Shown here one piece after another: positions 44,247 to 47,023 of a DNA stretch of 64,000 nucleotides. The stretch is from the NCBI RefSeq assembly GCF_003667565.1, contig NZ_RCUX01000002.1, positions 124,001 through 188,000 of the forward strand, read 5' to 3'. The stretch is from Mycetocola tolaasinivorans (GTDB lineage Bacteria; Actinomycetota; Actinomycetes; Actinomycetales; Microbacteriaceae). The first letter of the stretch is position 1. Each line of letters begins with the position of its first letter. The translations under genes and the position numbers were made by a program. Under the pieces are notes generated by a model that saw nothing but the letters and a program-made list of their open reading frames with translations, had not been told where the DNA came from and did not search any database.

Positions 44247-44873
44247 GTTAACGACTTCCGTAAACCCACGCTGTTTCCTGGGCACATGTTCAGCATCTTC
44301 GCCGGGGGCAGCGATCCCGCCGAGACCAGCCGGATCTCGCACGAGACCGCGCACGCGCTCCTCTCCCGGGTGCGCGCAAACCCCGACGCCGATATCCTCG
44401 ACCGCCTGATCGCCTACACCGACGAGCACGGCATCGAAACCATCGCCGAGCTGTGGTCCTCCGCGCCCGCGCGGAGCCTGCCCGGTGCGCTCTGGCGCAT
44501 CTACCTGCTGCGGGTGCTCATCCGGCAGGATCCGCAGTCCGCGAGCCTGATTTTCCGTCGCGGCAGCGAGGTGATCCCCACCATCGACCCGGTGATCGCC
44601 GGTGCCGCCGTGCCCACCAACGTCGAGGAGATCACCGCGCTGGCCGATGAGATCCTGCGCGGGATCTTTGCCGGAGACTTCGGCATCGCGCTCGACCGAG
44701 CCGCCGCCTACTGCCGTATTAACGCCGCCGGTTGTGTCTCGTTTGCGAACGAGGAGGAACTGATCCACCCCGAACGTGCCGCCGAACTCACTCGGCGCGG
44801 TCTGCGCTACAGCACCCTGGGCGCGGAGCTCACCTCCTGCGCCAAGCTGTGGCGCGCCCAGTCGCTCGACTAG
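44247..44873 (+). CDS. Conserved-looking protein of unknown function, start codon uncertain (GTT)
   Basis: About 208 residues, opening with NDFRKPTLFPGHMFSIFAGG and mostly helical afterwards. No family was recognised. AAGGAG (44235-44240) stands 6 bases before GTT (44247), where a GTG would be expected, and no ATG, GTG or TTG lies nearby in frame. The upstream in-frame GTG (44190) precedes the best -10 box (TACTCT, about 44198). Either GTT is used, or the upstream GTG starts a form with 19 more residues. The coding bias is normal for this genome, so the gene is likely functional. Confidence 0.65.
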   Translation, partial: VNDFRKPTLFPGHMFSIFAGGSDPAETSRISHETAHALLSRVRANPDADILDRLIAYTDEHGIETIAELWSSAPARSLPGALWRIYLLRVLIRQDPQSASLIFRRGSEVIPTIDPVIAGAAVPTNVEEITALADEILRGIFAGDFGIALDRAAAYCRINAAGCVSFANEEELIHPERAAELTRRGLRYSTLGAELTSCAKLWRAQSLD

Positions 44874-44946: not shown

Positions 44947-44952
44947 TACACT
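44947..44952 (+). promoter_or_regulatory. -10 box for the structured RNA at 44959
   Basis: TACACT lies 6 nt before G44959, the first base of the outer stem of the structured RNA. The spacing equals that of the leaderless promoters in this genome. Confidence 0.6.
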
Positions 44953-44958
44953 TATCTA

Positions 44959-45098
44959 GCCGGGCCGCAAAACCCCGGGCTCCAGTTTTTGCCGCTGCGA
45001 GCGGCCTTCCGCCGAGAGGCGTTTCTGCGGCCTGGCACCTACTTTTAACGAGAAGCGCCTTCCCCCACCTGTGAGACAGGCCGAAGGAAGGCGCTTTT
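44959..45098 (+). ncRNA. Candidate novel structured RNA with own promoter and terminator
   Basis: The transcript would begin at the base of an 11-bp stem (44959-44969 with 45026-45036, one G-U pair). Inside are three hairpins: AAAC/GTTT (44970-44973, 44985-44988), GCCGCT/AGCGGC (44991-44996, 45000-45005) and CGCC-GAGA-GGCG (45010-45021). A 16-nt linker follows, then an intrinsic terminator. No reading frame or ribosome site fits the region. It does not match tRNA, tmRNA, SRP RNA or RNase P RNA as I know them. Identity is open. Confidence 0.6.
45053..45098 (+). terminator. Intrinsic terminator of the structured RNA
   Basis: AAGCGCCTTCC (45053-45063) pairs with GGAAGGCGCTT (45086-45096), ending in TTTT. 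The loop contains a smaller CCTGTGAGACAGG hairpin. The T-run is better on the plus strand, although the convergent excalibur gene could also use it. Confidence 0.85.
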
Positions 45099-45118: not shown

Positions 45119-45523
45119 TTAGCGCTTCTCGCAGGCAACGCCGTCCTTATCGCGGTCGAGCTTGGTGTTGGCGTTGTAGACGGCGGTGTTGCGGGTAAAG
45201 TTCGTGACCGGCTTCGACTTGCCCGAAACCCTGTCCACGGCACCGGAGCGGCCCACACCGTGCGGGTACACCTTATTGAGCGCGGCACAGTTTGCGTAGG
45301 TCTTCGCCTTCGCCGCGGGCTTCTTCGCGGCGGGCTTCTTTACCGCAGGCTTCGGCGCGGGCTTCTTCGCGGCGACGACGTGCGACACCGAGGCCGGCGT
45401 CGCGGCCTGTGCGGGGGCCGCACTCAGGAGCGCCGAACCGCCGATCGCGGCCGGTGCGAACAGCGCGGCGACGATGAGCGCGCGCAGCGGCGATACCCGG
45501 CGGGAAGAACGAGTCGAGGACAT
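45119..45523 (-). CDS. Secreted excalibur calcium-binding domain protein
   Basis: A 134-residue exported protein with an N-terminal signal (about 1-40, ending AAPAQA), a Lys/Pro/Ala-rich linker (KKPAPKPAVKKPAAKKPAAK, about 53-72) and a C-terminal excalibur domain. That domain has YANCAALNKVYPHGV and the short calcium loop DRDKDGVACE. The family is extracellular; the basic linker may bind wall polymers. AAGGAG precedes the ATG. Role unknown. Confidence 0.9.
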   Translation of the reverse strand: MSSTRSSRRVSPLRALIVAALFAPAAIGGSALLSAAPAQAATPASVSHVVAAKKPAPKPAVKKPAAKKPAAKAKTYANCAALNKVYPHGVGRSGAVDRVSGKSKPVTNFTRNTAVYNANTKLDRDKDGVACEKR

Positions 45524-45705: not shown

Positions 45706-46938
45706 CTAGAGCCCGTCTACCGAAGCGCGGCGGCGCTTCAGCCCGAGCAGGCCCACGCCGGCGGCGAGCACCAGAACGGCGATGCCGGGCACGACCGAGG
45801 ACAGATCCGAACCGGTATCGGCCAGACCGCCGACGGCCGGGTCGAGTTTGACCGTCAGGGTCTGCGGAGCGGAGAGCACCCAGAACTCACCCATGCTCTG
45901 CGAGGTTGCGTTGACGGTAAAGATGGCCGAACCACGGGCGATATCCGCGGCCCCAACGATGTGGGTTCCGGTCAGGGTGCGGCTTTCGCCGGGGGCAACT
46001 CCCCGCACGGTTTCGTAATCGATCGGGTAGGCGCGCTCTGCTCCACCGGTGGTGTTGGCGGGCGAGGCGAGTGCGGGCTCGGCCAGGGTCGCGTTGCCGG
46101 AGTTCGTGACAACAACCGAGTAGTTGATGACGTCGCCCACGAGGCGAGGGGTCTCGGTGGAGGTGACCGTCGCAACGGAGGTTACCGCGGGCTTGACCAC
46201 GGGAAGCGGGAAGTCGTGAACCTGAATCGAGCTGTAAACGCCCTTGTCATTGGCGCTGATCCCGCGCACAACATACGACTCGGTGGTTTCGTTCTCGGCG
46301 CCCGAAACGGTCCCGGTCTGGGTGGGGACACGGAAATCGAAGGCGATCTGGGAGTACACCCACGTCTCGGTCAGGGTGACGGTTTCACCGGCCGCCACGC
46401 TCGGGCCCGGGGTGTCCCAGGGGTAGGCGGGGTGGATCTGGTTGACGGTGAGGTTGGTGAGATCCAGGTCGGTGAGGTTCTTGACCTCAAAGCTGTATCC
46501 GAAACGCTCGCCGACATCCAGCAGGCCGTTGCCGTTGGTGTCTTCGATGATCCAGGTCGGGGTTACCTCGAGACCGTAGTCGCCCCAGGGGCCCTCCTCG
46601 GTCTCCTGCCCGGGGGCGTTGCCCTCTTCGGGCTCGGCCTCGGTGTCGGTCTCCTCGGGGACGTCCGCGGCCCTGGTCGGCTCGATCGAAACCTCGGGGG
46701 TGGGCACCGGGCTGGACGGCTCGTCGGCCTCGGTGGTCTCCGACGGGCTCGCGCTCGGCACCACCGAAGGATCGGTGGATTCCGAACCGGTTTCGGTCGT
46801 GTCATCCTCTGCGACGACACTTGCCGACGGTACCGGCATCGGCGCGGCCGATGCCGGAAGAGTGGTGGTCACGCCGAGCAGTACGCCAAGAGACAGGACG
46901 GAGGCCGCGGTAGCCCAGCGACCCGAGATTTTTGCCAT
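45706..46938 (-). CDS. Cell-wall-anchored surface protein with LAxTG sorting signal
   Basis: A 410-residue secreted protein. It has a signal peptide (about 1-32), an acidic Ser/Thr/Pro/Glu-rich stalk (about 33-115), a calcium-loop-like DTNGNGLLDVGE (near 135), and DUF11-like beta domains (about 140-360) with TVTNSGNATL-type strands. The C-terminus is LADTG, then a hydrophobic helix and KRRRASVDGL, a sorting signal of the LAxTG class used by class E sortases. GGGGGA precedes the ATG. It lies just downstream of pstB, separated by a terminator. Confidence 0.85.
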   Translation of the reverse strand: MAKISGRWATAASVLSLGVLLGVTTTLPASAAPMPVPSASVVAEDDTTETGSESTDPSVVPSASPSETTEADEPSSPVPTPEVSIEPTRAADVPEETDTEAEPEEGNAPGQETEEGPWGDYGLEVTPTWIIEDTNGNGLLDVGERFGYSFEVKNLTDLDLTNLTVNQIHPAYPWDTPGPSVAAGETVTLTETWVYSQIAFDFRVPTQTGTVSGAENETTESYVVRGISANDKGVYSSIQVHDFPLPVVKPAVTSVATVTSTETPRLVGDVINYSVVVTNSGNATLAEPALASPANTTGGAERAYPIDYETVRGVAPGESRTLTGTHIVGAADIARGSAIFTVNATSQSMGEFWVLSAPQTLTVKLDPAVGGLADTGSDLSSVVPGIAVLVLAAGVGLLGLKRRRASVDGL

Positions 46939-47023
46939 TATTCCCCCATGGAATTGAAGTGGTTGAGTGACTTCAAAGATACGTGCAACCGGGGACAATT
47001 CGGGACGAAAACAGTGGAGTTTT

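Follow-up and report, generated by a model that had tools for sequence, protein, structure and literature searches.

The 64,000-nucleotide stretch of Mycetocola tolaasinivorans DNA analysed here (the window) contains, in the wake of a gene for an all-helical protein, a compact structured RNA that recurs in many Actinomycetes. It is probably a free-standing, trans-acting regulatory RNA of about 140 nt, a member of an undescribed Actinomycetes family that is linked to stress in many lineages; it would pair with its targets through a seed in its C-rich junction, J2/3. A free-standing regulatory RNA is in itself of a known kind. This family, the depth of its conservation and the thiol-stress link of its promoter appear undescribed in the searchable part of the literature, possibly excepting the Streptomyces transcript scr2952.

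Architecture and covariation of the RNA

The RNA lies on the forward strand. A sigA-type −10 element, TACACT (44947–44952), stands six bases ahead of G44959; TACACT, TAAACT or TAGACT is equally spaced in most Microbacteriaceae homologues. In most of this family a TANNNT hexamer ends 6–7 nt ahead of the RNA. The conserved core of 78 nt (44959–45036), delimited by family blastn and covariance-model searches, is closed by helix P1 (44959–44969 with 45026–45036), which in the window has 11 bp, one of them G-U. Inside P1, the short helix P2 brings AA (44971–44972) together with UU (45022–45023). It is followed by the single-stranded junction J2/3, CCCCGGGCUCCAGUUUUU (44973–44990), a C-rich segment of 18 nt whose conservation marks it as a putative interaction site. 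Then come two hairpins: P3, GCCGC-UGCGA-GCGGC (44991–45005), and P4, CGCC-GAGA-GGCG (45010–45021), which carries a GNRA tetraloop and abuts P2 directly. All four helices are placed by covariation. The core is succeeded by a single-stranded linker of 16 nt, ACCTACTTTTAACGAG (45037–45052), which genus comparison finds conserved within the genus only, and by a predicted intrinsic terminator hairpin of 13 bp, with an inner hairpin and a TTTT end (45051–45098). The 140-nt locus folds at −69.9 kcal/mol compared with −52.2 kcal/mol in shuffles (z −4.64; 0 of 200 shuffles as low).

An earlier note, made from the letters of the window, had described this layout, and its coordinates all check out: the TACACT hexamer and its distance from G44959, the 11-bp closing stem, the GAGA-tetraloop hairpin, and the 16-nt linker with a terminator-type hairpin running to 45098 behind it are present in the sequence. 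Two of the three inner hairpins that it drew, P3 and P4, are supported by homologues. The third finds no such support and was dropped. In the class-wide consensus, the C-rich stretch 44973–44990 is a single-stranded junction.

The predicted fold, in which P1 and the short P2 enclose the C-rich junction J2/3 and the hairpins P3 and P4, is set by covariation. Pair counts come from an alignment of 72 distinct sequences, in which 97.8% of the cells of the P1-P2-P3-P4 structure are paired, compared with 89.7% when shuffled. Double changes affect 13 of the 20 pairs and 116 cells, against a mean of 24.9 cells in shuffles, none of which (0/500) reached the observed value. P1 is paired in 99.7% of cells, with double changes in eight of nine consensus pairs; compensatory changes in the closing stem, whose absence among relatives the earlier note would have taken as a refutation, are thus found. 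P3 is paired in 99.4% of cells and passes from C-G to U-A in ten sequences; P4 is paired in 100%, and two of its pairs are doubly changed.

P1, P3 and P4 were included in the alignment model, R1, and their figures therefore lean towards the structure, whereas P2 was absent from it. The AA:UU pairs of P2 in the window are AG:CU, GA:UC, GU:AC or UG:CA in other homologues. Double changes in P2 number 26 and 11 cells with zero one-sided changes, and 15–24% of its cells are unpaired. The loop of P4 is GNRA (GAGA, GCGA or GUGA) in 143 of 152 class-wide sequences. Across 29 family sequences, J2/3 consists of an invariant CCCCGGGCUCCA and a variable tail; class-wide, CCGG and a pyrimidine-rich run are kept in nearly all of the 152.

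Distribution, paralogues and neighbouring genes

By blastn, the locus is matched in each of the four genus genomes, and its 78-nt core is kept in 272 of 300 family genomes and 81 of 85 genera. Most family matches cover the core only, and begin and end at, or close to, the outer bases of the closing stem. The listed family genomes that gave no blastn match are mostly small (0.7–1.7 Mb); some others, among them G080, G142 and G194, are of normal size, and a covariance model recovered the RNA in G080 and G142. Model R1, built from 29 family sequences, detects the RNA in 293 of 297 order genomes (20 families) and in 137 of 247 class genomes, mostly as one full-length copy per genome. A second model, R2, built from 72 divergent sequences, detects it in every Streptomyces genome that the phylum sample lists, this genus being recognised by the named Streptomyces records that group with it, and in 106 of 201 genomes of a family (f22) tentatively assigned by sequence resemblance to Mycobacterium-like relatives. 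R2 gave no match in 358 genomes belonging to the phylum's other classes, a result that doubles as a false-positive control.

Hosts named by a pattern scan are Streptomyces, Kitasatospora, [Mycobacterium] manitobense, Nocardia, Gordonia, Williamsia, Arthrobacter, Rothia, Kocuria, Cellulomonas, Brevibacterium, Nocardioides, Geodermatophilus, Jiangella and many Microbacteriaceae. Homologues keep no coding frame and carry many short indels in their junctions. A protein-coding explanation was rejected for want of a conserved frame, in agreement with the earlier remark that no reading frame fits the locus. At one locus (L104) the RNA is duplicated in tandem (1593–1672 and 1775–1854), and either copy has a GGAAT/GGAAC-N18-GTT promoter of its own.

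R2 also retrieves expanded paralogues of 98–108 nt (loci L344–L363, in which the core begins at base 301 of the RNA strand). These keep P1, P2, J2/3 and P4, and P3 is replaced by a long hairpin. Several genera of f22 and other families have them, and some Streptomyces carry one as a second copy.

Upstream of the RNA in the window, and outside it, a co-directional gene (44247–44873, forward strand) encodes a 208-aa all-helical protein. A GTG start is likely and the AlphaFold model has a pLDDT of 87; the protein has no match in Pfam or NCBIfam and no PDB fold match at E < 0.001. Homologues are present at 79 of 151 RNA loci, upstream and co-directional at 71 of them and usually 10–180 nt before the RNA, a synteny that extends over the order and some neighbouring lineages. 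Of the 247 class genomes, 77 encode the protein, nearly all of them RNA-positive. It was not found in Streptomyces, which, like other lineages, carries the RNA without it, and on this ground the protein was rejected as an obligate partner. Judged by its distribution, it is a lineage-specific neighbour.

The neighbours of the RNA change by lineage. In Streptomyces, 165 nt separate the RNA from a malic enzyme gene downstream, and a terminator lies in between. In the window, the gene behind the RNA is convergent and encodes an Excalibur protein (45119–45523, minus strand). Further on lies a gene for a DUF7507-repeat surface protein with a weak LAVTG-type sortase signal (45706–46998, minus strand); it stands between the RNA region and genes from 47198 (minus strand) that resemble a pst operon (phosphate transport) by sequence.

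Promoter elements and a proposed SigR/SigH link

The motif GGAA[TC]-N16–20-GTT is found upstream of 28 of 72 homologues and of 35 of 80 compact copies from the pattern scan, against a random background of 0.61%; these counts are per sequence and not per independent event, which makes binomial significance figures too favourable, yet the motif is found in many families. It mostly ends about 5–15 nt ahead of the core. The expanded paralogues carry it at 18 of 20 loci, against the same background. In Streptomyces both promoter elements are fused, as GGAAT-N18/19-GTTAGCCT.

The SigR motif is published as GGAAT-N18–19-GTT (PMC9205884), and the motif of the homologues agrees with those of SigH/SigR in the summary given by PMC3489674. 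Many homologues thus share the promoter motif of the SigR/SigH regulon, which serves actinomycetes in thiol-oxidative stress. The literature searched was not found to describe this RNA as a member of that regulon, and the regulation is suggested by the motif. In many lineages, a sigma factor of the SigR/SigH type (thiol/oxidative stress) would accordingly control the RNA, its promoter being often fused with a housekeeping −10 element.

The window's own copy departs from these homologues: the GGAAT and GTT elements are absent, GGT stands at the position of GTT and only the sigA-like TACACT is visible. A promoter scan found no sigma-70 −35 hexamer at this copy. A genus-mate locus (L004) has GGAAC-N17-GTT.

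Downstream of the RNA, strict terminator-like hairpins occur within 110 nt at 23 of 152 homologues, as opposed to 3 of 427 random stretches. Promoter elements at a fixed spacing and, in the window, a terminator give the locus the free-standing layout of a trans-acting sRNA. Action in trans is a reasonable inference, and the RNA is presumably expressed in M. tolaasinivorans.

Mode of action and relation to known RNAs

Under the reading that we favour, the RNA would start at or beside G44959 from its own promoter and end at its own terminator. P1, the short P2 and the three-way junction with P3 and P4, the latter abutting P2 and bearing the GNRA loop, would display the invariant C-rich strand CCCCGGGCUCCA.... 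Transcription would be driven by a SigR/SigH-type sigma factor in many lineages; in the window species, only the housekeeping element is visible. A short seed in the displayed strand would presumably pair with G-rich sequence close to the ribosome-binding sites of a small number of mRNAs, whose translation would thereby be adjusted during stress.

Seed pairing by J2/3 is favoured since small RNAs of Gram-positive bacteria are commonly built with an exposed C-rich strand. The 12-nt complement of J2/3, TGGAGYYCGGGG, is found at 64 sites in 14 genomes compared with 57 for a reversed-pattern control, so it is not enriched. About 12 of the 64 sites are the RNA genes themselves, and those that were checked and could be assigned to a gene lie mostly inside coding sequence. 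Since full complements are neither enriched nor, for the most part, outside the middle of coding sequences, there is no large set of perfect targets; full-length antisense targets of J2/3 were rejected, their frequency being no higher than that of the reversed control.

So uniform a conservation of the junction is unusual for base-pairing small RNAs and also fits protein binding. The three-way junction, the GNRA loop and J2/3 would then form a rigid site that holds or sequesters a protein, on the principle of 6S or CsrB RNA. Unpaired and paired residues are similarly rigid, both being near-invariant across the class, the tetraloop is kept almost throughout and sites complementary to J2/3 are not enriched, all of which makes protein binding a serious rival. 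We nevertheless hold it to be possible rather than likely, as no protein strictly co-occurs with the RNA: even the helical protein is confined to its 77 class genomes and missing from RNA-positive Streptomyces. An RNA with two states has also to be considered, in which the binding of a ligand, a metal or a partner converts the three-way junction to a long hairpin formed by J2/3 and both arms of P4, or back. For the window sequence alone, this alternative, which pairs J2/3 with the arms of P4, is the minimum-free-energy structure (−41.2 kcal/mol, against −34.2 kcal/mol for the covariation fold; the interiors differ), and RNAalifold picks it for family-only sequences. Such a switch is improbable: P1, P3 and P4 are selected by the class-wide alignment, GACA and GUCA loops disrupt one of the alternative pairs, and the alternative pairs are nearly invariant, so that no covariation backs them.

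It is unlikely that the RNA is an element acting in cis, be it the 3' UTR of the helical-protein gene or a leader or attenuator of a downstream gene. In favour of such an element, the upstream gene is co-directional and usually close by in the order, and the malic enzyme gene follows the RNA in Streptomyces; however, promoter elements sit directly ahead of the RNA, terminators come after it, the gene behind it in the window is convergent, and the neighbours vary between lineages while the RNA does not. The earlier view that it is not a leader holds on the same evidence. To a divergent 6C RNA (RF01066), which the earlier note had left open as a relative, we give almost no credence. The present RNA resembles 6C RNA in being small, free-standing and actinobacterial, with a C-rich unpaired stretch; this stretch is a junction, though, in a closed three-way structure, whereas 6C RNA has two hairpins with loops of at least six C, and the loops here are UNCGA-like and GNRA. 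RF01066 matches neither the window nor the locus (E up to 10), nor any part of the host genome (93% complete). Moreover, S. lividans possesses 6C RNA (PMC8079986), and the sampled Streptomyces genomes carry the present RNA too.

Other Rfam families fare no better. At the gathering score, Rfam 15 finds in the 64-kb window one tRNA and a ZTP riboswitch only; the latter (ZMP/ZTP, RF01750; 23622–23726, forward strand) scores 40.7 bits against a gathering score of 39 bits. No match overlaps the RNA at this score in the window, at 13 family loci, at 20 divergent loci (where E up to 1 was searched) or at 6 named loci, and no family matches in 8 kb around the Streptomyces copy. Permissive thresholds, such as E up to 10 at the locus itself, gave chance-level matches only. 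A match to a known Rfam family, which would have spoken against the earlier note, is therefore missing from Rfam 15. Its description of an unknown structured, free-standing RNA is borne out by this result together with the class-wide covariation, the promoter at a fixed distance, the differing neighbours and the many terminators. A literature search by sequence fragments returned no relevant paper, its matches being by chance and outside the subject.

Among described RNAs, 6S RNA and mycobacterial Ms1 are likewise structured and free-standing, and, like them, the present RNA might bind protein. 6S RNA is built as a long hairpin with a central bubble; the present RNA, by contrast, has a core of about 80 nt with a three-way junction, and no Rfam model of a known RNA matches it. 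Scr4115 (RF02829) and other Streptomyces small RNAs in Rfam are also small, intergenic and found in the same hosts, but RF02829 sits at other positions of the same genomes.

A described transcript, scr2952, may correspond to the Streptomyces copy, a comparison made by location only. This small RNA of Streptomyces coelicolor goes back to Vockenhuber et al. 2011 (cited in PMC8388888); PMC8388888 reports it as expressed, as conserved in over half of the Streptomyces that were tested and as included in Rfam. Its name points to the SCO2952 region; the two may be identical because SCO2951 is a malic enzyme (PMC7494193) and the Streptomyces copies of the RNA lie just upstream of a malic enzyme gene. 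If so, the reported expression of scr2952 may lend the family indirect support as a transcribed RNA. Against this, the Streptomyces copy has no match in Rfam 15, although PMC8388888 places scr2952 in Rfam. For scr2952, neither a structure, a promoter nor conservation outside Streptomyces was found described in the literature searched.

The RNA is present in about 99% of the sampled genomes of the order, in the sampled Streptomyces and in about half of the sampled genomes of the Mycobacterium family. Few actinobacterial small RNAs are understood, and actinobacteria are not known to have a general RNA chaperone such as Hfq. A broader reading, which we advance only tentatively, is that of a class-wide Actinomycetes family of compact and expanded paralogues that may serve the SigR/SigH response to thiol stress as its non-coding arm and act through its three-dimensional junction, by protein or ligand binding and possibly by switching, instead of seed pairing. 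The finding opens an RNA arm of the SigR/SigH response to testing, and it also supplies a covariance model, ready for use, along with candidate loci in laboratory strains amenable to genetics. A structured RNA kept this widely, and often behind the thiol-stress promoter, would count among the class's most conserved regulatory RNAs.
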